Positions 4,932-33,053 of a DNA stretch of 33,053 nt are shown here, one piece after another. The stretch lies in the IMG/VR virus record IMGVR_UViG_3300007734_000590, positions 1 through 33,053 of that record, one strand, 5' to 3'. A model generated the notes under the pieces. The model was given only the letters and a program-made list of their open reading frames with translations, was not told where the DNA came from and made no database searches. Within the stretch, counting starts at the first letter, position 1. Every line of letters begins with the position of its first letter. A program made the translations under genes and the position numbers. The DNA comes from a virus.

Positions 4932-7900
4932 ATGGCACAAAGTCTCCCATTACCAGACGGCACATCGGTAACTATCAGGGAGGGCGAAACGCCCGAAGAC
5001 ACGTGGCAACGTGCTATACGGGAATACCCTGAAGCTTTTCAACCACAAAAACCCAAAGAAGAAAAAAAAGAACCCACCCTTGGTGGGCAAGCCAAAGAAT
5101 TTTTAAAAGGTATTGTGCCCGGCGGTGTTGGGCTGTTGGAAACTGCGGGTACGGGTATATCCGCATTACTGCCACAAGAACAAGAACTTGCTACTCGACG
5201 TGCAATTGACGAATATGCAGCGGCGGCTAGAAAACCGTTTGAGGCAGCGCCGGGTTACGAAGACACAATAGGACGTAAGTTAGGTGAAGGGGTGGGGTCG
5301 TTCTTACCGCTTGTGCCGTTAATGGCTGCTGGGCCTTTAGGCGTAGCCGGTGCAGGTGCTTTAAGTTTAGGTGCGGGTGCAGGTGAAGCGCGTATAGGCG
5401 CAGAACAGGCTGGCGCAACACCTGAACAAATATCAAGAGCTACGTTGTTGGGCAATATTCCCGGCGCTTTTGATTTAATTACCCCTGCCAGAATACTTGG
5501 ACGTGTAGCTGAACCGATTAAAGCTGGTGCGGTGGCTATGGTTAAACGCGCCCTTGTTGCTGGTGGTGAAGAAGCGGCGCAAGAAGCGGCTCAACAAATT
5601 GCACAAAATTTAATTGCCAAAGGCGTTTACAAACCTGACCAAGAACTTTTAGCGCAAGTAGGAGAATCTGCGGCGTATGGCGGCGCTGTGGGCGCTATGG
5701 TGCAAGGCTTTATGGATTTGGCACTGGGACGTAGAGTGCACGGCACTTCTACAAAACAACCTGTACCAACTGCTACCGAAGCCGCTGGCATCCCCGAGCC
5801 TACCGTGCGTGGCGAACAACCGCCAGCAGAAACAGAAGTGGGTGATGAAGAAGCCGCCATATTAAAAGAAGCCATTGCCCCCAAGAAGAAGGCCGCAATG
5901 GATAAGCAGCTTGCTAAAGAACAGCAAGAGTACTTAAAGAAATACCAGACACTGGCAGCGCAACGAGAAACAGACCAAGCAGAACGTGAGCGTATTGCTG
6001 CGCTCACACCAGAAGAATTTGCTACGGAGCAGATGCAAGGTATTGGAAAACAACCCAAAGTAAAACCGGTTGACCAAGATGAACTGGCAGCATTGGGTTA
6101 CCAAACCCAACTACCGTTTGTATCTGGCGAAGTTGAAAACTACACAAGGCAGCAACTGGCGCTTGCAAAAGATAGGGAAGCTGCTCCTAATATCAACACC
6201 TATGTAGATTATTTGCTGGCTAAGCCTGATATGGCACGGCAAGTGGCAATGTCTGGCCAACCTGTGCCCGGTCTTTCTATAAAGCAAAGCCACAGCGTAA
6301 AAAGCATTTTGCTGGATAAGTTAGAAAAACAAGACCGTGATGCCGCTAAAGCGGCTGAACAAGCCAAACAAACTGGGTATGAGCGCGGTCGAAACCTGCT
6401 GGGGCAGCAGCAAAGCGATCAAACAAACCAACAACTCCTTAGTGCAGCCAGAGAAACACCTGCCGCCCAAGCGCAAGCATGGGAACGTGGTGAACGCGAA
6501 AGAATTGAAGCAAAAGAACAAGCAGAAAAAAACCGCATTGCTAAGCTGACACCTGAACAGTACAAGGCAGAACTTCGTCAAGTAAAACAAGAAGCATTGC
6601 CTGAAGGCGAAGAACCTGCGTTGATAAGTGAGAATGATCCGTTGCTCAAGCAACTGGTTAGCGCTTTGCCAAATGACAACGGGCGTGTGCTTCCGGGTCA
6701 AGTGTATGAAGGGTTGGGAGGCACGCGTACTGCACGCAAAGATTTACAAGCCCAGCTTGCTACCGCACGGATAACAGGCAACAAAGCCGAAATGTCGCGC
6801 ATCAAAGATCAGATTGATGCAGGCAAAGAAAAACAAGAAGTTGGTGGTTTTGGAACAACTTCAGAAGCTGCTAAAAGTATTGGGGGAGGGGTAACGCCCG
6901 AGTCTCGCGCCAATGAAGTAAAAGCAGATCAGTTTTCAGATCAACAACGTTCTATTTTGTTGGGGTTGGTAAAGCAGTTAAATACACGCAACCCTTTAAA
7001 CCCCGGACAAACCCGTAGAGACGCTACGCTTAGTCTGCCAAGTGTTTTTGAAAAACGCATAAGCGATGCCAAAGAAACTTTTGTTGCCGCACACGCCAAT
7101 GAAATTGAAGCACGCCGCGCTGCCTTTGATCTTCCGCCTATGGCAGATTGGGAACGTGCCGAAGCTCGTGCCCGTGCGTTAGAAGCATTGAATGAGTTGT
7201 CAAGCCGTTGGGGTACGTTTGGTGCACCCGTTCGGGCAGTTGCAGTACTACAGCAACAAGTTCGTGATGCTACGCACAATAATTTGTTGGATGCAGCCAA
7301 GCGTTTTAATCTACAAGCAGGCACGGAAACCCAAGAAAAGTTAGCTGCATTTACTAAACAACTCCAGAAGTACACCAACTATAAGGGCGAAGAAATAAGC
7401 GTTCCGCAACAGACTGGCCCACGGATTGCCGCCCCCAGTGAGTTGACGCTTAAAGGAACACCGCGCATTCCAACAAACGATAAAGCCGCTGCGCTTAAAT
7501 TTATTGACACGGTGTTGGATCAAGCCGAACGCCGCATCCGCGCTATTCCTGTTACAGAAAGAAAGCCTGTTGCCAAAGTTGGCAACATGGAAGATATTGC
7601 CAAGTTGTTTGAAGAAAGTAAAACTGGCGGCAAAACAGAAAAGCTAGATCAGGCAACGGTTGATTTGCTGCGTCGTTTTAGAAACAGTTTAGAAACTTCA
7701 ACCGATCCAGAATTTATATCGTTGGCGCGTGAACAAGTGCAACGCGTAATGGAAGGCAGTGCGCCTGACCCAATGGCGCTGCGTGACCTTGATGAAATGA
7801 TGAAGGGTCAGGAAGTATCGGGGCGCAGTGCTGGAAAACCGTTGTCCGCAGAAGATACAACCGCTGTTGCCCGTGGTGAAAAGAAATACGAAGCCCAACC

Positions 7901-10900
7901 GCAGAAAGAGTTGTTCCCTGAAGCCGGTGTGCAAGTTGCTCGTGCCACACCGCAAAACTTTCAAAAAATGTTGGACTCCCAAGACATCCAAGGTTTAAGA
8001 GCTGCTATTGCTAAACAAAAAGCAGACAACTTGGCGGCTTTGCAGTCCGTTGGTAAAGAGATACCCAACTTAAAAAACAAGCTGACCAAGGCCGAACAGA
8101 ACTACAAAGCCAAATTAGCTAAAGCACAAAAGACAACCCCCGATGCCAAAGCGTTGAGCCGAAGCATGGAAGAAGAACTGACTGCGGCCAATGAAACTTT
8201 AAGTGCAATTAGCCAGCAGTATCGGTTTGTTGGTGCCCAACTGTCTGAGTTGGAAAACATGCGCAACGCTTTGTTGGCGGCGGGTGAGAGCGGAACTATT
8301 GATGCCAGATTTGCTTTGGAAGCTAACGCTTTAATCCAACAAGAAAAAGCTTTACGCAAACAGCAAGATGAATTGACCAAACAGTTAACCCAAGCGCACG
8401 CGCTTGTCAGTTCTGTTGAATCGTTCCAAGAAGTAGAGAAAAAATTTGTTGCTCCTGTTCTGGAAGAAAACGAAAAAGCAAATAAAGATTTGGCCAAAGC
8501 TCAAGCAGATTTAACCAAAGCCAAACAAGAACGGCTTGGCGAATCTCGGATTGAAAAACTGCAAGCTAAAGTAGAACAAGAAGAACAGCAACGCGCAGAA
8601 AAACAAAAAATTCCAGAAGGTGAACGCGCCACCGACACGGAGCAGTACCGTGCTTCTTTGCAAAAAGGCCGTGAAGGTTTAGATTTGCCCGGCCTGCGTG
8701 TTGAAAAAGACACAACAGGCATGAAGGATGAGATACATGAAATCCGCAGTGAGATGGGCAGTCTCAATGAGCTTATTGCTAGTAAAAAAACTAAACCAGA
8801 AAAACGGGCTGAATTTGAAGCTAAGCTAGAAGATGCTGAAGAACGCCTTGCCGCTGTGTACGAAAACGCACCAAGGGTTACTACTGAGTTGCAGTCGCGG
8901 GATGAAGAACGGGCTATGCGTGAGTACGACGACGCGCAAGCAGCGGCATACGACGAAGCGAAAGCTAGACGCGCTAAACGTACCGGTGAAAAAACAGAAC
9001 GTCTTGTACACACACGCGGTACTGCACTTGTTAAATCCGTAACAGGGTCGGCTATATCTCAACCCCGCAAACCCAACAAAACGGTTGAAGTGGGTGAAGC
9101 AATTACAGACAAGCTGATAGAAGCAAAAACAAAACTGGCTGAGATACAGCGGCGTGTTGCTTATCTTAAAGACAACAACAAACACAAAGTAGCAGGGCGT
9201 TTAACCGATGCCTTTAAAGATTTGCAAGGCAAAGAACAGTTACAAAAACAAAAGCTTTCCAATATTCAAAAACGCCAAAGCAAAATTGTGGCTGTTGAAA
9301 AAGCAGCCACATCTGGCTACACAAAAGAAAAACAAAAAGAAGCCCTGCTCCAAGCCAAGAAGGAAGACGAGCGTTTTGCCCGTGGTGTTGAGGTCGAAAG
9401 CCCTGACTTGACGGCCACACAACGCAGCGCCATTGAAAGCAACGACATAACTGCGGCGTACTCCGATATTGCCAAAGACGCTAGTACCAGCAAGCTCAAC
9501 CGCGTTGTTGCACAACGGTTGGCTGAAATGCTTGGCGGCACAAACATCCGTATTCAAGACAAGGTGGTTGACAAAAACGGTAATGCCGTTCTAGGTTCAG
9601 CTACCAGCAAGCAAATTAATTTAAACCGCAACGGCGGGTTGACGCAAGAGATTTTGTTGCACGAAGGTACTCACGCAGCTACTGAGCGTGTGCTTCAGAT
9701 GGATGAAAGCAAACTCTCCCGCACGCAACTGATTGCCAAACGCGAACTCATGGCGTTGTACAAAGCTGTTCAAAACGATCCCCGCATTACCAGTAGCAGT
9801 GCCAAAGGCAGCTTGTCTGAGTTTGTGGCTGAAGTCATGTCCAACCGCAATTTGCAAGAACAGTTGCGTGGTAAGAAATGGAAACTATCGGATGCTTGGG
9901 CTGGGTTCAAGAGCATCATCTTGCGCATGTTGGGTATTAACCACCCAGAAACTATGCTGGGCGCTGCGCTCCAGTCAGTGGATGCATTGATGGTTCCGTC
10001 TGATGTGAAGTTGGACGTGAAAGAACGTGCGGTAAATAGGCGCCTGTCACAGAAAGACATTGCCGCGTTGCATACCGGCAGTAACTCCATGAAGCAGTTC
10101 GCCGATCAGTTTGGTCAGGACATCAAGGCAAAAGACCGCACGCCTGAAGATGTTGAACGTATTGCAAAAAATTACTTAATTGATATGGAACGCAATCCTG
10201 ATGAGTACGTTGCTGCACCATACACAATGCGGAACTTGATGCGCAGAAACGCAGTGCTTACCAAAGAACAGGAAGCGGGGCTTGTAAAAATAAAAGAACT
10301 TCAAACGCAATTAAACAAAGACACGCGTGACTTTACTGCGGGTGAACCTTACGACGAAAAGTCTGCGCACTACAAAGAAACAACAAAACAAATTGAAAAA
10401 CAACAACGCGAAATAGATCGCCTTGAAACAAAAATGGGTTCGTTGGATTATATTTCTGATACAAGAATGTCAGACGGCGAACAATATGACGACGACAATC
10501 CTTTGCACTACGTTGAAGCGGATGCAACTACATTCGCAAGTTTGAAGGCTCAAAGTAATGGGTACTTGCGTGACCAAGAAGCTCGCGCTATTCGGGACAA
10601 ACGTGCAGAAGATTTAAAATCTCTTGTGCAACTATTGTCAGGTAACCCTTCGTACACATTAGCTGAAAACGCACTGGTGGCAAAAGCGGCTTCTAAATTT
10701 GCAGTTGTTTCAGATAAGACTGGGCGTTTAAAGTTAGCGTCTATTGCAAACAATAACCGAAACGGTGTTGCCGTTGTCAGTCTTGACGCTGCGGATGCTG
10801 TTATTCGTGAGTTACGTGCTGGTAAAAATTTAAAAGAAGCGTTTCTTGATGGCGTACAAGCAAGCACGGATCGTGCAATTAAAGAAAATTTACGCAAAGA

Positions 10901-13900
10901 AGGTTGGCAAAAATTTAACCAAACCGAACGCGAAGAAACAGCACAAAGTTTAGCGGCGCTTTATACGGACGAAGAGTTTAATGAAGCGTTTGGTCAAACA
11001 GGTTACGACATTGAAAACGAAAATGAATTAATTGAAATGCTCATTAATGATGGGCTGCTACCAGATCGTCGCAGTAAACTAAGCAATATTCAAACAAACT
11101 TTGAAAAAGCAGCCATTGAACTTAACAAGGCGTGTGCTGGTACATCTTGGTGTACTGGCAGGGATGAAAACTACGCCCGTGACCACATTGCTGGTGGAGA
11201 CTTCTACGTCTACTATAAACAAGGCCGTCCAGAAGTTGCCGTGCGCATGACCGGTAAAAATGCAATTAAAGAAATTCGCGGTAATACAGACGATCAAGCG
11301 TTGAACAAAGAACAACAAGCAATTGCAGAAAACTTTTTAAATAGTAGTAACTTTGCAGATGCCGACGAGTATTTGTCGCAATTTAAACTTAAACAAAAAG
11401 CAATTGAAATTGCCAAAGGCAACGCTAAGTTTACGCCTGAAGATTTGATGAGCAGCAAAGTTGTGCGTAACGGTAAAATAAATGTTAAAAAGTTGTTGGA
11501 CTTTGAACTTATTGATGGGTACCGGGGGCTTCGTGGTCGCCCCACAGAAGAAGTTGAAAAATTCTTTGAAAGCAAAATTGAAAAAGCTGTTGAAGACGCA
11601 TACGAAAACGGATACTTTATTGGTTCGCGGATTGTAGTTAGTTTTGACGGCGTTAGTAACGTGGAGTTGAACGGCAAAAAATACCAACCTGATTTGAGTG
11701 ATATTAAAGCGGCTGAAACAATCAGCGTTAACACTGTTAACGGCAGAATAGAACTTCCTAATCTGGAGTCGGTACAAGCTTTAAACATTCACGGAGATGA
11801 AGACTACGTAACAGATTTGCATTTGCCAAAAGTAAAGTACATCCCTCAAATATTTGCTTTTGGCCGCGATGTTGATACGGCTGTTGTTACGCTTGCGCCA
11901 AACGCAACAGTGGGCCTTATTGACGGCAGCAATACAAACGACGCGCATATAACCGTTAACAACGTTGCTGTTGTTAAAAATGCTGAAGCACCAAAAGGTA
12001 GAACACTGTATTTAAAATTACCAGATACTAAGTATCTTCCGTTTGAAGGCAACATAGAAGCTGACGTTGTTATTTACGCTCCGCAACGTGTCGAAGGCGC
12101 TCCCCCCATTGAAGAAATGGTTGAGCGCGATGCTGAAGAACCGCGTTATGCGCGTGCGCAAGCCAAAGGGTTTGAAGACGAACTGAACGTGGCCAGCCAA
12201 GTAATTGCCAAACCCAAAACTGTAGGCCAACAAATCAAGGCAAACCTTGGCTTGGGATTCCGCACACAGGTTTTAGACAGGCTAGCACCGTTGCACCAAG
12301 TGGCTAAGGATATGCTGGAGCCGTTGAAAGGTATGCAGATGATGCACTACCTGTTGGCTTCAGACCAACGCATGTCTTATGTTCAGCAAGCCGTTGGCAA
12401 CGGCGTGCCCCAGCGTGTTCCGTACAAATACACTGATGGTCGTACTGAGTACATTGTTGAAAGCGTTAGTGGCGCTAATCTTGCCAACGTGGTGCGTACC
12501 TTGGCCAAAGCCCCCGGCATGAACGGTGAAGCGGCTAACCAGTTGTTTACCTTGTACTTGCTTGGCAAGCGTGCTGACCGCGTGGGCTACGACAAGCTTA
12601 ACTTTAGCGTTGACGCAAACTCAATTAAACAAGCTGTACGAAACATTGAAAGCAACGAAGCTTTGCGGGATGTGTTTGAGGAAGCGCGTACTGAGTACAA
12701 CGAGTACAACAAAAACTTGATGCACTTCTTGAAAGACACAGGCGTACTGCCCCCAAGCGTGGCCGATGAGTTAGCGGCTACTAACGACTACATACCCTAC
12801 TACCGCGAGCAAAACGGCAACGCTGAATTGGTGATTGGTAAAGAAGGTATTTACAAGATCGGTAACCTTGCAGACCAGCCCCAGTTGCGTGAGTTGATTG
12901 GCGGCGAAGACAAGATTCTTGACTTTGCTACAAGCTCTGTTCAAAACACTTCCATGATTATGGATGTGGGCTTACGCAACTTGGCTGCAAAGAACGCTAT
13001 GTTTGAGTTGGTAAGTCTGGACTTGGCACATTTCTTGGGTAAAGACACCGCAGCGCCAAATGTTGTCAGGTTTAAAGACAAGGGCGAAGAAAAGTTTGTC
13101 CGTGTTGATACTGATGCCGTGGGCATCCCCGCTGACTTACTGGTCAAGGGTATGGAAGGTATCCCGGTCAGCACTAATGCGTTGGTAAAGGTAATGGGTT
13201 TTGCTTCCAGTACTGTTCGTAAGGGTGTCATGTTGAACCCGTTATACCCCGTTAAACAAATACTGCGCGACTCTGTTGCGGTTCCTTTGCTTGCTGGCGC
13301 TGACTTTGCTGGCCCTCTTGGTGCGCTCAAGGCTTTGGGTAGTAGCGCAACCAAACAAAAACTGGAAGCACGCGGTATAACTGGTGGTCAGGTTTACACT
13401 GGAACAAACGAAGACTTGTCCCGCATCCTGAAAGACTTGATGGGTGGGCGCGTGGGACTATCCCAGTTTGTTGCCAAGGCCGAAGCTATTGCAATGGAGG
13501 CGGATGCTGCTACCCGCCGCGCTCAGTACGACTCCTACATCCGCCAAGGTTTGTCGCAGATGGAAGCCACTGTCATGGCACTTGAGTCCATGAACTTTAA
13601 CAAGCGTGGGCTGTCGCCATCCATGCACTTAGCCACTACGATAATCCCGTTCTTTAACTCACAGTTGCAGAGTTTGGATGTGCTGTGGAGAGCGGCTAGC
13701 GGTCAACTACCTATGAGTAAGCGTTTGGATATTCAGGGTAAGTTACTGCGCCGTGGCTCCCTTGTTATGGCAACCGCTGTTGCATACGCCCTGATGATGC
13801 AGGACGATGACGCATACAAGAACGCACGCCCTGAAGAGAAATACGGCAATTTCTTTATCCGCATACCGGGATTGAGCGAACCTATCAGGTTCCCCGTTCC

Positions 13901-14687
13901 GTTTGAAATTGGCTATATTCTTAAAGGTATTCCAGAAGCTATTGTTAACTCAATGGCAACTGAACACGGTTCTGAAGAAGCGTGGAAAGCTTTTAAAAGC
14001 ATTGCCATCCAGACAGTGCCCGGCGGCTCGTCCATGCTAATGCCTGCGTTGGTTAAGCCAATGATTGAGAACGCCACAAACTATTCGTTCTTTGGTCTGC
14101 GTGAGCTTGAAACACAGCGCGAACAAAAGCTGCTGCCGCAACAACGTTTCCGCGATAACACGTCTGAGTTGGCCAAAGAGCTTGGTGCAATGGTTGGGTA
14201 TTCGCCAATCAAAATTGACAACTTGATCCGTGGCTACACAGGCACGATGGGCTTAGCCGCAGCACAAGCGGTGAGCTTTGCAATGCCTGAGAAACTGGGG
14301 CCGCAAGAAGCAACCAAGCGCCTGTCTGACACGCCTGTTATTGGTTCAATGTTCCAGCCCAATGATGCTGGCGGCATCATCAACGCTACCTACGACCGCA
14401 TTGAACACATTGTGGAAGTCAAGCGCACATACGAAGACATGCTTAAGAAAGGTGAGATGTCTGAAGCCCGTGCGTTCTTGCAAGAGAACGTGAACGAGAT
14501 AGCATCGGCCTCCGTTGCTGGTAATGCCAAAACACAGCTTTCAAAAATAACTCAAGCTATGAACGCGGTCAAAGCGTCCAGCATGACACCTGATGAAAAA
14601 CGGGCAACGCTTGATCGACTGCAAAAACTGCGGATACGGATTGCCGATACTATGCGCGGAGTGCTCGATAAAACAGCACCCCAATAA
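4932..14687 (+). CDS. Giant polyvalent virion protein (3251 aa): HEGTH peptidase motif, PcfJ-like domain, LPD38-like C-terminus
   Basis: One uninterrupted 3251-codon gene. Residues about 100-270 are glycine/alanine-rich and hydrophobic, possibly membrane-active. About 300-1450 is charged and largely coiled coil. A metallopeptidase-like segment has HEGTH at 1577-1581 with candidate third ligands E1630 or E1634. SWCTG (2072-2076) followed by GGDFYVYYKQGRPEVAVRM and a helical part resembles PcfJ-related domains of mobile elements. About 2230-2390 contains strand-rich repeats (ELPNLESVQALNIHG, LHLPKVKYIP). From about 2400 to the end is a large helical region with NDYIPYYRE and MLNPLYPVKQILRDS, resembling LPD38. 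Polyvalent proteins of phages are thought to enter the cell with the DNA and protect it. Its position after the transglycosylase gene fits injection. Individual activities are untested; domain naming relies on motif memory. Confidence 0.85.
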   Translation: MAQSLPLPDGTSVTIREGETPEDTWQRAIREYPEAFQPQKPKEEKKEPTLGGQAKEFLKGIVPGGVGLLETAGTGISALLPQEQELATRRAIDEYAAAARKPFEAAPGYEDTIGRKLGEGVGSFLPLVPLMAAGPLGVAGAGALSLGAGAGEARIGAEQAGATPEQISRATLLGNIPGAFDLITPARILGRVAEPIKAGAVAMVKRALVAGGEEAAQEAAQQIAQNLIAKGVYKPDQELLAQVGESAAYGGAVGAMVQGFMDLALGRRVHGTSTKQPVPTATEAAGIPEPTVRGEQPPAETEVGDEEAAILKEAIAPKKKAAMDKQLAKEQQEYLKKYQTLAAQRETDQAERERIAALTPEEFATEQMQGIGKQPKVKPVDQDELAALGYQTQLPFVSGEVENYTRQQLALAKDREAAPNINTYVDYLLAKPDMARQVAMSGQPVPGLSIKQSHSVKSILLDKLEKQDRDAAKAAEQAKQTGYERGRNLLGQQQSDQTNQQLLSAARETPAAQAQAWERGERERIEAKEQAEKNRIAKLTPEQYKAELRQVKQEALPEGEEPALISENDPLLKQLVSALPNDNGRVLPGQVYEGLGGTRTARKDLQAQLATARITGNKAEMSRIKDQIDAGKEKQEVGGFGTTSEAAKSIGGGVTPESRANEVKADQFSDQQRSILLGLVKQLNTRNPLNPGQTRRDATLSLPSVFEKRISDAKETFVAAHANEIEARRAAFDLPPMADWERAEARARALEALNELSSRWGTFGAPVRAVAVLQQQVRDATHNNLLDAAKRFNLQAGTETQEKLAAFTKQLQKYTNYKGEEISVPQQTGPRIAAPSELTLKGTPRIPTNDKAAALKFIDTVLDQAERRIRAIPVTERKPVAKVGNMEDIAKLFEESKTGGKTEKLDQATVDLLRRFRNSLETSTDPEFISLAREQVQRVMEGSAPDPMALRDLDEMMKGQEVSGRSAGKPLSAEDTTAVARGEKKYEAQPQKELFPEAGVQVARATPQNFQKMLDSQDIQGLRAAIAKQKADNLAALQSVGKEIPNLKNKLTKAEQNYKAKLAKAQKTTPDAKALSRSMEEELTAANETLSAISQQYRFVGAQLSELENMRNALLAAGESGTIDARFALEANALIQQEKALRKQQDELTKQLTQAHALVSSVESFQEVEKKFVAPVLEENEKANKDLAKAQADLTKAKQERLGESRIEKLQAKVEQEEQQRAEKQKIPEGERATDTEQYRASLQKGREGLDLPGLRVEKDTTGMKDEIHEIRSEMGSLNELIASKKTKPEKRAEFEAKLEDAEERLAAVYENAPRVTTELQSRDEERAMREYDDAQAAAYDEAKARRAKRTGEKTERLVHTRGTALVKSVTGSAISQPRKPNKTVEVGEAITDKLIEAKTKLAEIQRRVAYLKDNNKHKVAGRLTDAFKDLQGKEQLQKQKLSNIQKRQSKIVAVEKAATSGYTKEKQKEALLQAKKEDERFARGVEVESPDLTATQRSAIESNDITAAYSDIAKDASTSKLNRVVAQRLAEMLGGTNIRIQDKVVDKNGNAVLGSATSKQINLNRNGGLTQEILLHEGTHAATERVLQMDESKLSRTQLIAKRELMALYKAVQNDPRITSSSAKGSLSEFVAEVMSNRNLQEQLRGKKWKLSDAWAGFKSIILRMLGINHPETMLGAALQSVDALMVPSDVKLDVKERAVNRRLSQKDIAALHTGSNSMKQFADQFGQDIKAKDRTPEDVERIAKNYLIDMERNPDEYVAAPYTMRNLMRRNAVLTKEQEAGLVKIKELQTQLNKDTRDFTAGEPYDEKSAHYKETTKQIEKQQREIDRLETKMGSLDYISDTRMSDGEQYDDDNPLHYVEADATTFASLKAQSNGYLRDQEARAIRDKRAEDLKSLVQLLSGNPSYTLAENALVAKAASKFAVVSDKTGRLKLASIANNNRNGVAVVSLDAADAVIRELRAGKNLKEAFLDGVQASTDRAIKENLRKEGWQKFNQTEREETAQSLAALYTDEEFNEAFGQTGYDIENENELIEMLINDGLLPDRRSKLSNIQTNFEKAAIELNKACAGTSWCTGRDENYARDHIAGGDFYVYYKQGRPEVAVRMTGKNAIKEIRGNTDDQALNKEQQAIAENFLNSSNFADADEYLSQFKLKQKAIEIAKGNAKFTPEDLMSSKVVRNGKINVKKLLDFELIDGYRGLRGRPTEEVEKFFESKIEKAVEDAYENGYFIGSRIVVSFDGVSNVELNGKKYQPDLSDIKAAETISVNTVNGRIELPNLESVQALNIHGDEDYVTDLHLPKVKYIPQIFAFGRDVDTAVVTLAPNATVGLIDGSNTNDAHITVNNVAVVKNAEAPKGRTLYLKLPDTKYLPFEGNIEADVVIYAPQRVEGAPPIEEMVERDAEEPRYARAQAKGFEDELNVASQVIAKPKTVGQQIKANLGLGFRTQVLDRLAPLHQVAKDMLEPLKGMQMMHYLLASDQRMSYVQQAVGNGVPQRVPYKYTDGRTEYIVESVSGANLANVVRTLAKAPGMNGEAANQLFTLYLLGKRADRVGYDKLNFSVDANSIKQAVRNIESNEALRDVFEEARTEYNEYNKNLMHFLKDTGVLPPSVADELAATNDYIPYYREQNGNAELVIGKEGIYKIGNLADQPQLRELIGGEDKILDFATSSVQNTSMIMDVGLRNLAAKNAMFELVSLDLAHFLGKDTAAPNVVRFKDKGEEKFVRVDTDAVGIPADLLVKGMEGIPVSTNALVKVMGFASSTVRKGVMLNPLYPVKQILRDSVAVPLLAGADFAGPLGALKALGSSATKQKLEARGITGGQVYTGTNEDLSRILKDLMGGRVGLSQFVAKAEAIAMEADAATRRAQYDSYIRQGLSQMEATVMALESMNFNKRGLSPSMHLATTIIPFFNSQLQSLDVLWRAASGQLPMSKRLDIQGKLLRRGSLVMATAVAYALMMQDDDAYKNARPEEKYGNFFIRIPGLSEPIRFPVPFEIGYILKGIPEAIVNSMATEHGSEEAWKAFKSIAIQTVPGGSSMLMPALVKPMIENATNYSFFGLRELETQREQKLLPQQRFRDNTSELAKELGAMVGYSPIKIDNLIRGYTGTMGLAAAQAVSFAMPEKLGPQEATKRLSDTPVIGSMFQPNDAGGIINATYDRIEHIVEVKRTYEDMLKKGEMSEARAFLQENVNEIASASVAGNAKTQLSKITQAMNAVKASSMTPDEKRATLDRLQKLRIRIADTMRGVLDKTAPQ

Positions 14688-22482: not shown

Positions 22483-22793
22483 CAAAACCTCGCTGAGTTG
22501 ATTGCAATGTTTAAGCGTTTGGCAAAGCCTTCAACGAAGTCCTCACGCTTGTTGAGCTTGTGTTCTTCCATGTCCCGCAAGATGGCGTGAACCAATTCAT
22601 GCCAGAACGTTTCCTTGACATCATCAAGGTTGAACTTGCGCCCAGTCACACCGTTGCGTAAGCCCAGCTTGATCTTCTGCTCAAGGTACATCACACGCCC
22701 CATGTCCAGCTTGTCTTGCATGGCTTCAACAACTTCGACTGAGTACCATCGCTCACCTATTTTTATTTTCTTTGGCAGTGTTAATGCTGTCAT
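22482..22793 (-). CDS. Small HExxH metalloprotein (SprT-like)
   Basis: A 103-aa protein with a zincin motif FWHELVHAILRDM (H65, E66, H69) and a later glutamate (E88 in VEGFAKRL) suited as third zinc ligand. The N-terminal half has beta strands (KIKIGERWYSVEVVE). Phage proteins of this size and pattern are common in replication regions and often called metallopeptidase-like. SprT-type proteases act on DNA-crosslinked proteins, which would fit a gene whose ATG overlaps the stop of the DNA polymerase (ATGA). Protease activity is an inference. Confidence 0.72.
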   Translation of the reverse strand: MTALTLPKKIKIGERWYSVEVVEAMQDKLDMGRVMYLEQKIKLGLRNGVTGRKFNLDDVKETFWHELVHAILRDMEEHKLNKREDFVEGFAKRLNIAINSARF

Positions 22794-24757
22794 TGTTTTG
22801 CTTCTCCATATCTACGGTGTGCACCACCGTCAGCGGCCAGAGGTATCCCCGGCAAGTACTTCGGCTCCAATGTCATCTGGCCCAAGACCCAAGGCTTGGC
22901 TTCAGCGACTTCTGCATCAGGCACCAACACGATCTGTTCATCGTGCACTGTGCCTACCACTGGGTACTTCTTCGATACCCTCAACATTCCATCGGTCATG
23001 ACAATACGCGCTACGGCCTGCGTAACGTTATTGGTCAACTTCCCTGCATATAGCTTGGTAGCTTTTGGCCCGTATACCCACTGGCTCCTACCTTTGTCAT
23101 CTTTTGTGCGTTTCAAATCTGGGTAGAGCAAGCTCATCCCGTTTGGCAATTCTATACGTTCCTTGCTGAATGTCAAACACTTGTGCTCGTAAACCCTACC
23201 CCCATACAAACTGTCCTCGATAAGCTGTGAGCACATGTCCCAGAAGGTAGTAACGGGGTGGGCAGTGGCGCGGTAGATGTCGATGATCTTCTTGGCTGCA
23301 AGGCAGTGCGTCAACAGCTCCTGCTGTGTACAGGTGTGTGGTATCTCCAGCATCTTGGTTACGTTGTCCTCCCAGTCAATGAACTTCTGGGCATACGCCT
23401 GATCTACGCCAAGTGTCTTAGCAAAAGCTTTCTCGTATCGAACAGGCGGTGCGCCGAGGAAACCCGTGAGGAGTTGTGAAGCGAACGAAGCCCAACCCAA
23501 CCCATATCCGCAACCGAGCAACGCGCTTTTTGCAGACTGCCGTAGATCGGGGTGAGAGTCTTTAGATAGACCGGGTATGTTAAACATCTGCGCACCAAAG
23601 GCGGCGTAAGGGTCGCCACCAGCCTTGAATATATCCAGCATGTCTTGGTAATCTGCCAGCCATGCCAGAACCCTTGGCTCAATCTGAGATAGGTCACCAA
23701 CGACGAGGGAATATCCTTCGGGAGCCATGATTGCCTTGCGTAAGAAACTGCCGCGCTTGAGGTTTTGCATGTTGATTGCGCTGCCCTTTGCTGCCGTCCA
23801 GCGACCCGAGAGAGCACCGTAATACGATAGCGGAACCGGTAGTTTGCCGCGCTGACTGATGTCAAGAAATCGCTGTGCCCTCGTTCGTTCTGTCGTGGAT
23901 TTAACTTTAAGGCGTGCTTCACAAAGGAGGGCAACATCTTCACGTTCACTGTTGAGCAACGCTTGGAACATGGCATCATTCTTGGCGAAAGCGAACGCCG
24001 CTTTGCCGGTAGTTTTACTGACCTTAGTCGGGGGAGTAACCCCGAGGCTTTGAAGTACGTCAGCAAACTTCGGGTTCGATGCAAGCTCAGCCTCTTGTAT
24101 GCCGAGTCGTTGAAGTAATCCTTCACGTAGTTCTCCTTCTTCTGTTAATGCTTTGATGAGCATCTTGCTGTCAAGCTCAAGCCGTGGTCGTGTGTACATC
24201 TTGAGCGTCATGTCGATGAGCCGTAGTTCCGACGTAGGGTAGCCTTCACTGAAGCGCTTGAAGATTTCTTCACACAGGTATACATCATGCGCACAGTAAT
24301 CCGCAAGCGCTGCTTCAATATCTTCTGTAATAACAGCCAATCCATTAGTGGAGTGAACAGCTTGTCCTTTGGCGGGGAGACCAAAGTCGAGCGCCAGCTT
24401 CGCAAGGGAATTACCAACTTCCACGCCGCGTAAAGCGCGGCCCATTGATAGTGTGTCAAAGATGAAGGCTGGTCGTGCTCCGTAGACCCACTCCATAATG
24501 GATACATCGAACTGTGCGTTGTGCGCCAGCACTGCGGTTCGTCTCCAGTCAACTCCAGAAAAGTATTCACGTAGTCCCTCTCCTCCAACCCAGTCAGTTG
24601 GGCTATCAGTTCCGAACTCATGTACGCACGCTCCGAACGCCTTAAATCTTGTATCACGTATGTACTCCTCAGTTGTCATTTTTGATAACGTGTAGTCTTT
24701 GCTGTCCCACCGAGTTTCAAAGTCGATGGTGACTATCTTGTCAAACGGTTTAGTCAA
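22790..24757 (-). CDS. Family A DNA polymerase with 3'-5' exonuclease domain
   Basis: A 655-aa replicative polymerase. The N-terminal DnaQ-like proofreading domain shows Exo I TIDFET (D12, E14), Exo II LAHNAQFD, and Exo III DYCAHD. The polymerase part has motif A VVGDLSQIEPR, motif B RQSAKSALLGCGYGLGW, and motif C TVHDEQIVL (H605, D606, E607). It copies the phage genome with the primase-helicase and SSB-like protein of the same unit. The start is a TTG: GGAGG lies 7 nt upstream and the TTG overlaps the preceding stop (TTGA). No thioredoxin-binding insertion is obvious. Confidence 0.95.
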   Translation of the reverse strand: MTKPFDKIVTIDFETRWDSKDYTLSKMTTEEYIRDTRFKAFGACVHEFGTDSPTDWVGGEGLREYFSGVDWRRTAVLAHNAQFDVSIMEWVYGARPAFIFDTLSMGRALRGVEVGNSLAKLALDFGLPAKGQAVHSTNGLAVITEDIEAALADYCAHDVYLCEEIFKRFSEGYPTSELRLIDMTLKMYTRPRLELDSKMLIKALTEEGELREGLLQRLGIQEAELASNPKFADVLQSLGVTPPTKVSKTTGKAAFAFAKNDAMFQALLNSEREDVALLCEARLKVKSTTERTRAQRFLDISQRGKLPVPLSYYGALSGRWTAAKGSAINMQNLKRGSFLRKAIMAPEGYSLVVGDLSQIEPRVLAWLADYQDMLDIFKAGGDPYAAFGAQMFNIPGLSKDSHPDLRQSAKSALLGCGYGLGWASFASQLLTGFLGAPPVRYEKAFAKTLGVDQAYAQKFIDWEDNVTKMLEIPHTCTQQELLTHCLAAKKIIDIYRATAHPVTTFWDMCSQLIEDSLYGGRVYEHKCLTFSKERIELPNGMSLLYPDLKRTKDDKGRSQWVYGPKATKLYAGKLTNNVTQAVARIVMTDGMLRVSKKYPVVGTVHDEQIVLVPDAEVAEAKPWVLGQMTLEPKYLPGIPLAADGGAHRRYGEAKQ

Positions 24758-27696: not shown

Positions 27697-28236
27697 TCAA
27701 CCTCCAAAGATTTTCTTGAGGGCATCGTACAGGGTGCGTGCTTGCATCACACTCAAACTGTTTATGATTTCTACTTCTCTCTTTACCCACGACACCGCTG
27801 GCGCTGGCGTAGTATCGACCTTCAACGCGGCGATGCCTGCGCTTGGTGACTTACTCTTGATCTGCACGATCTTGTTCACACGCTTGCCCTCTGATCTGAA
27901 ATGCTTGGTTGACTTTAGCGGTGTGTACTCAGGCACGATAGTGGTGTATCTACCGTTGGCATCTTTCTTTGCAAATCCTTGCTTAACGTACTGCGTGATG
28001 AGTGAACCCACTGACCCTGTGTTGAACCCTTGCTTGGTTAGTGTGGTACGTATCTCCTTGCTGTTTTTGTTAGGGTTGTCTCGTATGTAGTTGAACGTCT
28101 CTCGTGACACGTTGTTGGTTGGTTTGAATATTTGCGGTAATGTGTTTGTTGGCACTGGCTTCTCCTGTTGTGTTTGTTGATCGTCTTGTTCCCATGCTTC
28201 GAGAACTTTGCTCATTTCACTTTTTAAGTCTGGCAT
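27697..28236 (-). CDS. Winged-helix DNA-binding protein
   Basis: A 179-aa protein. Residues about 42-100 read as a winged helix: SRETFNYIRDNPNKNSKEIR (helices 1-2), TLTKQGFNTGSVGSLITQYV (recognition helix region), then KQGFAKKDANGRYTTIVPEY (wing). The N-terminal 40 residues are Gln/Asp-rich and the C-terminus ends in a helix (SLSVMQARTLYDALKKIFGG). AAGGAG lies about 6 nt before the ATG. It follows the only obvious strong promoter on this strand (28257-28285), so it may control that promoter and so itself. It could alternatively be a replication initiator-like factor. Confidence 0.7.
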   Translation of the reverse strand: MPDLKSEMSKVLEAWEQDDQQTQQEKPVPTNTLPQIFKPTNNVSRETFNYIRDNPNKNSKEIRTTLTKQGFNTGSVGSLITQYVKQGFAKKDANGRYTTIVPEYTPLKSTKHFRSEGKRVNKIVQIKSKSPSAGIAALKVDTTPAPAVSWVKREVEIINSLSVMQARTLYDALKKIFGG

Positions 28237-28865: not shown

Positions 28866-29102
28866 TCAATATGCGTCTAAGAATTTACCATCATCATCGA
28901 GCAGTACATACCCGAGGCGCTCGCTACTGTCCATCATGTCCTTCGTGGTATGTATTGCGTCAAGCGTATCAGCCAAGTCACCACCGCACGCATACAACGT
29001 GCGGTACTCGGTCTGCAACCCGCCGATCTCTTTGAGTCCACCCATCTTCTTTGCCTCGGCATAAGATGAGTACTGACTTCTTCTCCAGAAATATAAAATC
29101 AT
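28866..29102 (-). CDS. Small hypothetical protein
   Basis: A 78-aa protein (MILYFWRRSQYSSYAEAKKM ... DTIHTTK-like middle, then ERLGYVLLDDDGKFLDAY). GAGGAG lies 8 nt before the ATG, which overlaps the preceding stop (ATGA). The C-terminal GYVLLDDDG resembles the GYLVIDEDG of the next gene, perhaps a shared small beta-hairpin. No family recognised. Confidence 0.65.
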   Translation of the reverse strand: MILYFWRRSQYSSYAEAKKMGGLKEIGGLQTEYRTLYACGGDLADTLDAIHTTKDMMDSSERLGYVLLDDDGKFLDAY

Positions 29103-29386
29103 TCTGCTATCTCCTCGTTGTAATCTTCAATCATGTGCCCTGCTATCTCGTACCAGTTCACATCCTTCAAGAACGCAAGCGCGTAGTCCAGCGCAATGTT
29201 CGGTGCGTGTGGGTCGCTCACGCTCATGGTGATTACCTCCTCGGCGTAGTCCTGCAACACATGGCGCAGTTGTTCAACAGGCAAGCCCAAGTCAAACATA
29301 TTCTCGATCTCAAGCCCATCGAATATCTCAAGGTTCACACGCCATGTGGCGTAGTTAGTCCAGCCGTTGTATTTTGTATCACTCAT
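29099..29386 (-). CDS. DUF7249-like protein
   Basis: A 95-aa protein beginning MSDTKYNGWTNYATWRVNLE. The NGWTNYxTWxVNL start is the mark of a family of small phage and plasmid proteins (DUF7249 as I know it) of unknown function. The rest is a helical middle (PVEQLRHVLQDYAEEVITMS) and a C-terminal part ending in HMIEDYNEEIAE. AAGGAGAAG precedes the ATG. It is the first gene after the terminator that ends the amidotransferase transcript, so it needs a promoter in or beyond 29387-29438 or read-through. Confidence 0.82.
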   Translation of the reverse strand: MSDTKYNGWTNYATWRVNLEIFDGLEIENMFDLGLPVEQLRHVLQDYAEEVITMSVSDPHAPNIALDYALAFLKDVNWYEIAGHMIEDYNEEIAE

Positions 29387-29403
29387 TTACTTCTCCTTTA
29401 GTT

Positions 29404-29433
29404 TAAAAAAATGGGGGTAAGCCTACCCCCATT
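29404..29433 (-). terminator. Strong intrinsic terminator after the amidotransferase gene
   Basis: On the minus strand AATGGGGGTA (29433-29424), loop GGCT and TACCCCCATT (29419-29410) give a 10-bp perfect stem directly followed by TTTTTT (29409-29404). A second hairpin of 8 bp with a GCGA loop (29441-29460) overlaps the stop codon of the gene. Together they mark the clear end of the amidoligase-amidotransferase transcript. Confidence 0.88.
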
Positions 29434-29438
29434 ACACG

Positions 29439-30533
29439 TTACACAAGCGCGAGCTTGTGTGACCAGTTCATGTAGTAGCACGCAACGTCAGCTACGTTAC
29501 CATGCAACCCATTGTCTACAGCATCCAGCAAGGCAACTGTGTCACCCGCAAGGAATGACTGGTAGATGCTGACTTCAAGCGCGGACATATCTTTAGTCGT
29601 AGTCCACTGCGTACCCGCGCACACCAACACATTGCAGAGAATGTTTATAGTAGTCTCAGGCACCTGCTCAAGCAGATCGGACAACGCGTCAGCATCCGCA
29701 CTCATGACGATCTCAAGCAGATCGCTAGGCTCGACAATGAACTCAGGCACAGCATCTTCAGGGAACTCATAGTCATTCTCGTCCCATGCAAGGTCATGCG
29801 CTGACAACTTGCGCGGCTTGATGCTACCCAAAACATCATCGTCATCCTTCCACGTATTAGATGGCAGTGAGCGATAGCCGCCGTATGTGTCATCGTAGTC
29901 AGCCATAGTGTCGTAGTAACGCGCAGCATACTTGGTCGAGTACTGGTACGAGGGGATCAAGCGGCTTGGTCTCCACGCATACGTGTTGCTGAACCACAGC
30001 CCGTCATGCTCAACGCCTTGGTCGTAGTTGACATGGCTCATCTTGCCGTCACCATCCATGAACACGAAGCGGTTGTCACCGATGAACTCGGCAAGCATAT
30101 CGCGGAACTTCTCGTTGTGTACCAGCGGTGGATGGTCAGCCGTAGGGCTGGCAAGATAGTCACGGATGAAGTGCCATGTGTCGGACTTGGTCTTGTCAGC
30201 ATCGTTGCCTGTGTGCAGGATGCCGTTGTGCATCATCGCTACGTAGCCCGGAATGACATCGTAGGGATGGCAGTTAGTCAGGTCAGTGTGACCATGCGTA
30301 GTCCAGCGAAAGTGAATCGCAAGCTCACGCGCATCGTTGGGTAACTTGCTGATGAAGTGAGTCGCATCAGCGAGAGACTTAGGCAACTGCTTGACAACCT
30401 TCAAGCCCTTGGTCGTGGCATACATGATGCCGATGCCATCAGGGTTGCTGGTGAAGATGTCGCTGAGCAACGCGTGTGTGTCGAGCAGAGTCGAACGGAT
30501 TTTGGCAGAAGTGCCAGTGATGATTAAACACAT
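29439..30533 (-). CDS. Class II (Ntn-type) glutamine amidotransferase
   Basis: A 364-aa protein of the N-terminal-nucleophile amidotransferase superfamily. After Met removal Cys2 is the nucleophile (MCLIITG). Further motifs: PDGIGIMY (31-38), HFRWTTHGHTDLTNCHPY (R76, H80, N87, H89), MMHNGILHTGN (N103, G104 oxyanion hole) and KSDTWHF (D118). The enzyme family hydrolyses glutamine to glutamate and ammonia for a partner. The C-terminal 170 residues are acidic/helical and not recognised. It follows the amidoligase gene by 21 nt, and AAAGGA lies 8 nt before the ATG, so the ammonia is probably used by that ligase. No synthase or transferase domain is fused to it. Confidence 0.88.
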   Translation of the reverse strand: MCLIITGTSAKIRSTLLDTHALLSDIFTSNPDGIGIMYATTKGLKVVKQLPKSLADATHFISKLPNDARELAIHFRWTTHGHTDLTNCHPYDVIPGYVAMMHNGILHTGNDADKTKSDTWHFIRDYLASPTADHPPLVHNEKFRDMLAEFIGDNRFVFMDGDGKMSHVNYDQGVEHDGLWFSNTYAWRPSRLIPSYQYSTKYAARYYDTMADYDDTYGGYRSLPSNTWKDDDDVLGSIKPRKLSAHDLAWDENDYEFPEDAVPEFIVEPSDLLEIVMSADADALSDLLEQVPETTINILCNVLVCAGTQWTTTKDMSALEVSIYQSFLAGDTVALLDAVDNGLHGNVADVACYYMNWSHKLALV

Positions 30534-30554
30534 GATTAGATTCCTTTATAAATA

Positions 30555-32360
30555 TTAAGACGATACGGTGAGGTTGTCAACACAGGTTGACTCGGATGGG
30601 GCAGCATTCTTAGCACCGACACGGCGGCGGATGCCGTACCAGTCGGACAGATGCGGATAGCGGTTGTCCGTAGACTTGAGCCACTTGAGGAACGATGCAC
30701 CGTTCAAGTCACGCATACTTGCAACGCGACAGAACATGACGACCGCATGAGTGAACTCGATCTGGGCAAGCAAGCGTTCTTTCTTGAGGGATGCACGGAA
30801 CACACGCAGCTCGATGGTGTTGAAGTTGCGCTCACCGACGTAGTACACACCCAAGCGGCTAGCCTCGGGGCTACGCAAGCAGGTCGTGTTGACCATGTAG
30901 TAACGGCTCGTACTCTTACCCTTCAATGCCTTGTTGGGATTCTCCATAGCTTGCTGCCCCTCGGCGGCACAGTAAGTACGGGCTTGCTCGTCAATGTGTG
31001 GATGACGACCTGCGAGCTTGCGAACGAAGTCAGCATTCTTCTCGTCATTGATGAACATGATGAACTTGCCCAGCGTCAGACGAGTGAACGCACGAGAGTC
31101 GATGTGAACGTGCATACCGCACTTGTTGGTGTTCCACGCACGATACTTGCTGTCGATAACCCACGCCTTGAAGCGTGCGATGTGGTCATGCAGACCACGG
31201 GGAGCCGTGACAACCTCGACACCACCCGAGGGCAACGAACCATCAGACTTACAGATGATGTAGTCCTCACCCAACTGGGTACGCAGATCAGTGACCGCCT
31301 CGGAGACAAACCCGCTGGTCACAAGCTCGACCTCGACACCCATGTGGAACTCACCGAACGGAGACGATGTGAACGACCCGTCCTTGTCAAGCAAGTCAAG
31401 CACGTTAGTGCTGTAGCCCATGAGACTACTCGTGTCGCTGTCGCTATCACTGTCCTCATCACTGTCCTCATCGTAGTCAGGCTCGTGCTCGTAGTACTCC
31501 TCGTTGCCGTCATGCCAGTACGCTACGTCGCGCAGCATCAGGATGCCCGTGTCATAAGTCTCAATGACCACACTGGTGTTCTCTGCACAGTGCTGGCAGT
31601 AGTCCCGATAACGTCCGCCGCCGATGCGTACTGTGCTGCCGTTGCCTGTGTGATCCCAGTGATCGCAGTAGTAATCAGTAAGACCGAAGCTAATGCCGTG
31701 CGTTTGGAACGCATCGTGTGCGGCTTGGGCTATGCGTCCATGCACCTCACTCTCTACGTCGTAGTCATCCATGAACGGCTGACTGAACAAGTCCTCGTCT
31801 TCCTTGATCGACTCGGCGATGAGTGCGCCCATGCGTGTGCAGAACTCTTTCTGTAACTTGAACCCGTACTCACTGCGATAGGTAGCGCCCTTGTAGCTGA
31901 TACGCCACTGCACAGGGTTGCCAAGCATCCTGCTCAGTCGATTCTCCATGTCGCTGATGATGCCGCGCATCATCTCGCGCTTCGTGCCCCAAGACAGGGT
32001 GTCACACAGCGCACCATACATACGATAGGTGAACGGCAAGCCCCACGTCATGAACCACTTGAGCAGGTCACCCGTGACTTCCTCGACTGTGCTCGTGGTC
32101 GCAGCGTTGTGGTGATCAGCTACATCCTCTGCGTACGTTTTAGCAGCGACATCGAGCGCAGCTAAGTCAGTGATGATCATCTCACGCATGGTGCGAGGGA
32201 GCATATCCCAGTCATCGTAGTCAACACGGGCACGATCAACCCCGAGCTTGCCGTAGCAACAGCGGTTGACAGTCAACCCAGTGAAACGATTGAACGCGTT
32301 GATGAACACGAGCTTGCGGACTTCTGCCGCGTTAACGATTGAAACCATGTACATTTTCAT
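30555..32360 (-). CDS. Amidoligase of the glutamine synthetase/GCS-like superfamily
   Basis: A 601-aa protein. Residues about 335-560 form an Amidoligase_2-type COOH-NH2 ligase domain: FHMGVEVEL (E343, E345), CKSDGSLPSGGVEVVTAPRG, GMHVHIDSRAF (H417, H419) and NTIELRVFRASL (E517, R519). Such ligases form amide bonds at carboxylates with ATP and metal. The N-terminal 270 residues are helical, with a possible zinc site (CDHWDH ... CQHC, about 225-255). An acidic Asp/Ser/Glu stretch (about 290-315) links the two halves. GGAG is 7 nt before the ATG. Together with the amidotransferase it makes a two-gene operon; the natural substrate is unknown. Confidence 0.85.
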   Translation of the reverse strand: MKMYMVSIVNAAEVRKLVFINAFNRFTGLTVNRCCYGKLGVDRARVDYDDWDMLPRTMREMIITDLAALDVAAKTYAEDVADHHNAATTSTVEEVTGDLLKWFMTWGLPFTYRMYGALCDTLSWGTKREMMRGIISDMENRLSRMLGNPVQWRISYKGATYRSEYGFKLQKEFCTRMGALIAESIKEDEDLFSQPFMDDYDVESEVHGRIAQAAHDAFQTHGISFGLTDYYCDHWDHTGNGSTVRIGGGRYRDYCQHCAENTSVVIETYDTGILMLRDVAYWHDGNEEYYEHEPDYDEDSDEDSDSDSDTSSLMGYSTNVLDLLDKDGSFTSSPFGEFHMGVEVELVTSGFVSEAVTDLRTQLGEDYIICKSDGSLPSGGVEVVTAPRGLHDHIARFKAWVIDSKYRAWNTNKCGMHVHIDSRAFTRLTLGKFIMFINDEKNADFVRKLAGRHPHIDEQARTYCAAEGQQAMENPNKALKGKSTSRYYMVNTTCLRSPEASRLGVYYVGERNFNTIELRVFRASLKKERLLAQIEFTHAVVMFCRVASMRDLNGASFLKWLKSTDNRYPHLSDWYGIRRRVGAKNAAPSESTCVDNLTVSS

Positions 32361-32391
32361 GATGCTTCTCCAGTTGATTTTGATTTAGTTT

Positions 32392-32406
32392 GTGTGTGAG
32401 ACACAC
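32392..32406. repeat. Inverted repeat 1 in the leader of the amidoligase operon
   Basis: GTGTGT (32392-32397), GAG, ACACAC (32401-32406) is a 6-bp hairpin located 32 nt upstream of the amidoligase start codon, in the expected 5' leader or promoter region. It may be an operator or an RNA stem. It stands 12 nt from a second inverted repeat. Confidence 0.45.
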
Positions 32407-32417
32407 GTCGATACAGC

Positions 32418-32436
32418 GAGAGAGAATTTCTCTCTC
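32418..32436. repeat. Inverted repeat 2 (19-nt near-perfect palindrome)
   Basis: GAGAGAGAA (32418-32426), one central T, TTCTCTCTC (32428-32436) forms 9 bp of symmetry in the 93-nt gap between the upstream small gene and the amidoligase gene. It lacks a T-run on either side, so a terminator is unlikely; a protein-binding operator for the amidoligase operon is the better guess. Confidence 0.5.
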
Positions 32437-32453
32437 ACTTGTTGACAGGATGA

Positions 32454-32747
32454 TTAGTCCTGCGTTGTGAATGGGTTGCTTGCAAGTGCAGCGATCAACT
32501 CATCCATGTATTCCTCATCGCTAAACCTCGCTATAAGTGCGTCACTCACTTTCTCTAAGTGCTTCTTTTCGGGTGATTTATAGAACCCGTCTGGCTCGTC
32601 TTCACACCAAGCGCCTAAGTTAAAAGCCCCCATCCAAGGTAGCCATGTATAGGGCACAGTGAATCTTCCTATCGTTATCTCCACTGTTGGAAACTTAATG
32701 TTATTGACTGCTTGTTCGTAGTCCTTTATTGCTTGTGCGTGACTCAT
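32454..32747 (-). CDS. Small hypothetical protein
   Basis: A 97-aa protein: helical start (MSHAQAIKDYEQAVNNIKFP), a strand pair (TVEITIGRFTVPYTWLPWMG), an acidic turn (WCEDEPDGFYKSPEKKHLEK) and a C-terminal helix (DALIARFSDEEYMDELIAAL). AAAGGAGAAG precedes the ATG, which overlaps the stop of the upstream gene (ATGA). No family is recognised. It is the last gene before the palindrome-bearing gap, so it probably ends a transcript. Confidence 0.65.
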   Translation of the reverse strand: MSHAQAIKDYEQAVNNIKFPTVEITIGRFTVPYTWLPWMGAFNLGAWCEDEPDGFYKSPEKKHLEKVSDALIARFSDEEYMDELIAALASNPFTTQD

Positions 32748-33053
32748 TCGTCTTCTCCTTTGTTAACTTCAAAATATCCAAGCCATTGCGTTCCCTCGAC
32801 TTGGGGTTGAAACATATTGATGTCGTATGGTGTGTCGTGTGGTACAGGTACTAGGTACAGGTTGTACGAGTAGCCGTACTTCTCCATGATGGACAGCAAC
32901 TCACGCAGGTCGCGTGTGGGTGTGGTCTGCGCCCAGTCAAACGCACTAGCGGCAAAGAAGTGCAGTTTGTAAGGCTGATTGTTGATGGGGTCTCCTCGCA
33001 TTACTGAATCGCGTTCTGCTTCAAGGGTGAACCACTCAACGTGCGTAACCTCA
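32744..33053 (-). CDS. Hypothetical protein, 5' end beyond window
   Basis: A partial gene: the frame is open to the right edge of the window, and the coding-looking residues before the ATG at 33001 (EVTHVEWFTLEAERDSV) plus the absence of a ribosome-binding site there suggest that translation starts outside. Visible part: DPINNQPYKLHFFAASAFDW, then AQTTPTRDLRELLSIMEKYG, YSYNLYLVPVPHDTPYDINM and a final QVEGTQWLGYFEVNKGEDE. A small alpha/beta domain is likely. It shares four bases with the next gene. Function unknown. Confidence 0.65.
   Translation of the reverse strand, partial: EVTHVEWFTLEAERDSVMRGDPINNQPYKLHFFAASAFDWAQTTPTRDLRELLSIMEKYGYSYNLYLVPVPHDTPYDINMFQPQVEGTQWLGYFEVNKGEDE

Follow-up and report, generated by a model that had tools for sequence, protein, structure and literature searches.

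Results and discussion

An exchangeable amidoligase and amidotransferase pair

The window, which is the whole 33,053 bp of the IMG/VR virus record IMGVR_UViG_3300007734_000590 (positions 1 to 33,053), encodes on its minus strand an amidoligase (30555..32360, 601 aa) followed by a class II (Ntn) glutamine amidotransferase (29439..30533, 364 aa). On balance, we consider it probable that the two form a glutamine-dependent amide ligase pair, targeted by a zinc ribbon and carried as exchangeable accessory cargo, for which a host component is a likelier target than replication or the particle. In the proposed mechanism, the amidotransferase would free ammonia from glutamine by means of its N-terminal Cys nucleophile, and the amidoligase would activate a carboxylate with ATP and form an amide, the acceptor being either this ammonia or an amine. 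The zinc-ribbon N-terminal extension of the ligase would probably help to recognise the target, which is more likely to be host-directed (takeover or counter-defence), and the pair would sit as accessory cargo in an exchangeable slot beside the replication genes.

Phage pairs of this kind are known and predicted (Iyer et al. 2009, as cited in PMC10580990, PMC5498523, PMC3890496 and PMC10945688), and the membership of the window pair in this kind, as originally proposed, is supported. The same four papers describe such pairs or larger sets with a predicted function in cell-wall modification or nitrogen and no proven substrate (PMC10580990, PMC5498523, PMC3890496, PMC10945688), and among the papers searched none defined the substrate of a phage pair, phage amidoligases having been predicted for over 15 years. 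What is new here is the genomic context, in which the pair behaves as accessory, replaceable cargo, and close relatives with a polymerase 91% identical to that of the window, differing by a clean swap of the pair for another module, provide a natural comparison.

The coordinates, minus-strand orientation and 21-nt spacing of the two genes are exactly as first noted. The pair shares its strand with genes for a family A DNA polymerase (22790-24757), an SNF2-type helicase, an exonuclease and a DUF927 primase-helicase, and the description of the locus as a putative early region is drawn from this same-strand gene content (polymerase, helicase, primase).

The amidoligase

The larger protein is an ATP-dependent carboxylate-amine ligase of the Amidoligase_2 type, as judged from Pfam, PHROGs, conservation and fold. 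Its score for Amidoligase_2 (PF12224) was 21.9 bits (E 1.8e-4) versus a gathering score of 22, and a distant homologue (L074) reached 107.9 bits; the amidotransferase scored 19.9 for GATase_4 versus a cut-off of 23. Since both single-sequence scores lie just below the curated cut-offs, either enzyme would be overlooked or at best marginally assigned in routine annotation. The PHROGs families for the two proteins are an amidoligase and an uncharacterised family.

Twelve positions are invariant across 40 amidoligase homologues, among them E343, E345, D373, S375, E382, H417, H419, T515, E517 and R519. The original prediction of a complete GCS-like amidoligase had named E343, E345, H417, H419, E517 and R519, all of which are found at these positions and conserved in 40/40 homologues. 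An AlphaFold model built from the same alignment (mean pLDDT 86.8) displayed the GS/GCS fold, with residues 331-601 resembling YbdK, glutamine synthetases, Dop and PafA at Z-scores of 9.5-11.7; YbdK, one of the GCS-like ligases, was the best structural match. The invariant residues and the fold comparison place the catalytic domain at residues 331-580 (30621..31370, minus strand). Querying PDB sequences with the amidoligase profile yielded no meaningful match. The Pup ligase PafA and the depupylase Dop share the GS-like fold (Z about 10) but have no sequence match to the window amidoligase, and a gene resembling Pup was not noticed.

The catalytic domain is preceded by a lineage-variable N-terminal extension, which in the model covers residues 1-295 (31476..32360, minus strand). 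The zinc-like motif that had been proposed for this part is real and reads C232-x-H234...C255-x-x-C258 (31587..31667, minus strand) in the alignment; wherever homologues include this region, the Cys residues are almost always kept. The acidic linker, also part of the original prediction, is located at residues ~294-312 (31425..31481, minus strand) and is modelled as disordered (pLDDT ~50). In 9 of 10 close pairs, the extension had a higher dN/dS than the catalytic part; such faster N-terminal evolution would fit recognition of a changing target.

The amidotransferase

The assignment of the smaller protein as a class II enzyme is based on Pfam, conservation and fold. Its glutaminase core (residues 1-194; 29952..30533, minus strand) contains the invariant residues C2, N30, R76, T79, G81, H89, H102, N103, G104 and D118, and the class II signature (a Cys after the initiator Met, RxxTHG, HNG and an Asp) is invariant or nearly so across 38 homologues. 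The predicted Ntn-type enzyme with Cys2 was borne out, as this residue is present in 38/38 homologues and residues 2-193 of the AlphaFold model (alignment of 38 homologues, mean pLDDT 84.5) adopt an Ntn fold resembling EgtC and GlmS. The C-terminal part (29442..29951, minus strand) is family-specific and modelled as a disordered linker (residues 194-238) followed by a predicted helical domain (residues ~252-359).

These folds are the same as those of EgtA and EgtC in ergothioneine synthesis, likewise a GCS-like ligase and an Ntn enzyme. In a comparable viral pair, the ligase would gamma-glutamylate an amine and the Ntn enzyme would later remove gamma-glutamyl from the product, with no ammonia passed. 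In structure, the amidotransferase indeed resembles EgtC most (Z 12.9), in a tie with GlmS (Z 12.4), and the YbdK match of the ligase points the same way; moreover, EgtC and class II glutaminases bind the same gamma-glutamyl group. However, EgtC was absent from the profile-to-PDB matches even at an E-value of 10, where the closest sequence was the glutaminase domain of GlmS (3e-7, with RWATHG...HP...HNG aligned), and the NCBIfam matches were exclusively GlmS models. In addition, the gene context differs and the module consists of just these two genes, and we regard the gamma-glutamyl route as distinctly unlikely. Under the preferred reading of a glutamine-dependent amide ligase, ammonia would likely pass between the two partners, in keeping with their co-occurrence.

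Pairing and selection

Searching with the amidotransferase alone as bait gave 57 viral loci, and a subsequent alignment search added the best 80 of 319 matches along with 19 loci from bacterial genomes. Within this set, including the best 80 of 319, an amidoligase was encoded just upstream of the amidotransferase, on the same strand and in the same order, in 128 of the 130 loci with room upstream, with a median intergenic gap of 31 nt. The two exceptions (L086, in an asparaginase II neighbourhood, and L089, with a giant ORF) appear to be class II amidotransferases of other kinds. Both enzymes evolve under purifying selection, with dN/dS values in close pairs of 0.26-0.48 for the amidoligase and 0.10-0.27 for the amidotransferase. 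The co-occurrence of the two genes across phages and the conservation of their catalytic residues, in 40 and 38 homologues, respectively, had been proposed as checks, and both came out in favour of the pair. The original interpretation, that ammonia from the amidotransferase serves a ligase acting on a carboxylate of a host or phage protein, a peptidoglycan peptide or a small defence-related molecule, is supported in part: the enzymes are intact, look like an obligate pair under purifying selection and belong to a known phage kind, with the choice of substrate keeping the standing of a prediction.

Among described phages, the pair was found in Marvin, MEP401/402, an uncultured podovirus and a Christensenellales phage; gut prophages are also among the loci carrying it, with ligases that contain two zinc ribbons or, in Bacteroidales, are shortened. 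In one locus (L007), an endonuclease-like ORF lies in the roughly 1 kb that separates the ligase from the amidotransferase, the gene order being kept. A DNA-level search of phage records with the module gave no match. The wHTH-like 179-aa gene next to the pair (27697..28236, minus strand) was considered as a universal third partner; it is present in 91 family loci and absent from gut and other phages, and its presence thus reflects local synteny rather than membership of the module.

In Bacteroidales, a ligase reduced to ~300 aa has portal and head genes nearby, and the role of the pair may therefore differ between lineages. The two gut Bacteroidales loci concerned (L074 and L085) combine a ~305-aa amidoligase and a ~178-aa amidotransferase near the terminase, portal and major head protein genes, and the target there may be a virion component. 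Amidation of a capsid or tail protein by the window pair as well would agree with this arrangement, but the pairs of the window family lie on the replication side and close relatives do without the pair, making a virion role for it very unlikely.

Several further loci deviate from the general pattern. The amidoligase is broken into two ORFs in L079 and L080, and the C. difficile phage AR1086-1 has an amidoligase with no amidotransferase detected beside it. Conversely, Bifidobacterium phage BP742P1 (L145) encodes an amidotransferase-like protein (4001-4501) with no detectable amidoligase in the fetched stretch. A contig from a Comamonadaceae MAG (JAUMYU010000051.1, L071) carries an amidoligase, an amidotransferase (45% identical) and a relative of the window polymerase; its place in a bacterial bin is possibly a hint to the host, or possibly a misbinned phage contig.

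Replacement of the pair by other modules

Relatives of the window were also collected with the polymerase as bait, and 80 of at least 599 were fetched; the IMG/VR relatives are metagenomic records, possibly fragments, and the loci are partly non-independent. Twenty loci were informative, having at least 2.6 kb upstream of the wHTH-like gene, which was recognised by a winged-helix-like stretch and synteny and marks the downstream side of the slot for all three cassette types. Exactly one of three modules was found upstream of this gene in 20/20 loci, none having two and none lacking all three: the amidoligase and amidotransferase in 6, a zinc-ribbon protein with an M20/M28-type peptidase in 9, and a set of AAA ATPase, DUF2201 and 319-aa proteins in 5. 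These counts are not all independent, as two of the loci (L214 and L216) look like near-identical contigs. Two modules together were not found across all loci examined, and no complete pair turned up elsewhere when 15 contigs carrying other modules were searched with profiles over their whole length.

The replacement is most evident in close relatives. The record 3300021963_000130, whose polymerase is the 91% identical one mentioned above, is without the pair and instead carries the zinc-ribbon protein P0003 (451 aa), the M20/M28-type peptidase P0004 (371 aa) and a third gene. The metal-ligand pattern of P0004, HxD...DD...EE...D...H, is invariant in nine homologues. Likewise, comparison of L001 (ligase 86% identical) with L227 demonstrated a clean replacement, the flanking DNA being 94.6% identical upstream and 87% identical downstream, so that the amidoligase pair and the peptidase cassette substitute for each other between homologous flanks. 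In the window, the exchangeable slot spans approximately 28874..32750; on the left it stops where DNA homology to a relative carrying the other cassette ends, and its right border, deduced from L001, is near the end of the window. The peptidase cassette (its peptidase belonging to phrog_4191) occurs at L227:3886-7147 and in L148, L150, L182, L186, L187, L207, L215, L218 and L222, never with the amidoligase pair. The third cassette (L167:2600-7112; also L169, L173, L174, L185 and L229) consists of an AAA ATPase, a DUF2201 putative metallopeptidase with a VWA-like domain and the 319-aa protein, beside a DUF3150 gene; it was assigned to the slot by a match on the wHTH side only, the upstream marker gene not being found in these loci.

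The mutually exclusive replacement of the pair argues against an essential role in replication or the virion and for an interchangeable, host-directed role; because relatives carry other modules in the slot, the target is likelier to be a host component than a need of replication or the particle. It also bears on a possible function in DNA hypermodification, in which the pair would put an amino or amide group on a modified base. The pair does adjoin replication genes, but close relatives replicate without it, and no thymidylate-synthase-fold gene was found in the contigs of 20 relatives by searches with positive controls. Thymidylate-synthase-fold enzymes make hydroxymethylated pyrimidines, and this role appears scarcely credible.

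Direct BLAST detected no homology between the zinc ribbons of the ligase and P0003. Profile comparison, on the other hand, identified them as homologous over 54 columns (probability 94%, E 1.3e-7), and the common ribbon offers a handle on the target. The fast evolution of the extension and a ribbon common to two alternative cassettes both agree with the suggestion that the substrate may be set by the N-terminal zinc domain. The three modules may even be equivalents aimed at one host target or signal, with amide-forming and amide-breaking (M20/M28-type) pairs bearing a homologous zinc ribbon and the AAA/DUF2201 set as the third, although we hold this only as a tentative and rather doubtful proposal. 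If true, takeover or counter-defence cassettes that use amide chemistry and stand in for one another would constitute a new class. The slot may also be no more than a hotspot for insertion, the cargoes being unrelated. PADLOC gave no defence-model match for either gene of the pair or for the alternative cassettes.

Comparison with other amidoligase systems

The mycobacteriophage Marvin has the same order of amidoligase and class II amidotransferase (gp105/gp106), with a ligase longer than the catalytic domain, but identity to the window proteins is about 26-29% and the genome position is another. The OM43 phages MEP401 and MEP402 and the uncultured podovirus MW202733 likewise have the two genes in this order, close to where the replication region begins, though with 27-36% identity, different neighbours and no DNA-level match to the window.

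In phiEco32, LUZ24, RIO-1 and PSA-HP1, an amidoligase and a class II amidotransferase are found among early genes, and it has been proposed for these phages that the cassette alters peptidoglycan stem peptides and blocks superinfection. By analogy, the window pair could modify the cell wall, a reading supported by the same enzyme kinds, by the similar location of the podovirus cassettes among replication genes (PMC5498523, PMC10580990, PMC3890496) and by the accessory distribution of the pair. The podovirus proposal is itself a prediction, however, and those cassettes add a gamma-glutamyl cyclotransferase, an ATP-grasp protein and a second ligase, in contrast to the two genes of the window. 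A gamma-glutamyl cyclotransferase was found in 0/25 relatives' records, with positive controls; the second COOH-NH2 ligase (PF14395) was also found in 0/25, in a search whose controls were likewise without positives. An export signal was not noticed in the pair. Overall, a cell-wall function of this type seems unlikely.

Auxiliary nitrogen metabolism has been suggested for Planctomycetes Phage-ZRK32, where genes with the same annotation would feed nitrogen into amino acids (PMC10945688). That phage, however, has a four-gene glutathione-like set, and neither a zinc-ribbon extension nor replacement by peptidase and AAA modules would be expected of a bulk metabolic enzyme, which renders such a function of the window pair highly improbable.

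Flanking hairpins and other observations

The pair had been described as bounded by palindromes upstream and a strong terminator downstream, and folding identified both. The intrinsic-terminator hairpin directly 3' of the amidotransferase stop (29410..29433, minus strand) combines a T run with a perfect 10-bp stem (dG -15.7, z -2.6). Two palindromes, GAGAGAGAAATTCTCTCTC and GTGTGTGAGACACAC, lie 5' of the amidoligase (32385..32445, minus strand; z -4.5). As a class, terminator-like sites are not in excess (3 observed versus 3.2 in shuffles), the hairpin at 29410-29433 being an unusually good one.

The flanking hairpins are swapped between the window (29410-29433 and 32415-32439) and L001 (5923-5946 and about 8938-8957). 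The AATGGGGGTA...TACCCCCATT hairpin is found 3' of the pair in the window and 5' of it in L001, with a hairpin of the GAGAGAAATTCTCTC type filling the other place and near-identical flanks, and the intergenic hairpins thus seem to be swappable units.

A large amide-chemistry cluster was observed in Stenotrophomonas phage StenR_269 (L144, 3950-12108), comprising genes for a cyclotransferase-like protein, two amidotransferases, a GS-like ligase, an ATP-grasp ligase and an amidoligase. Elsewhere in the window, a 741-aa SLT-domain protein, for which no relative was found in phage records, is encoded upstream of a 3,251-aa protein (4932-14687, plus strand), the C-terminal 800 residues of which match two uncharacterised PHROGs families.
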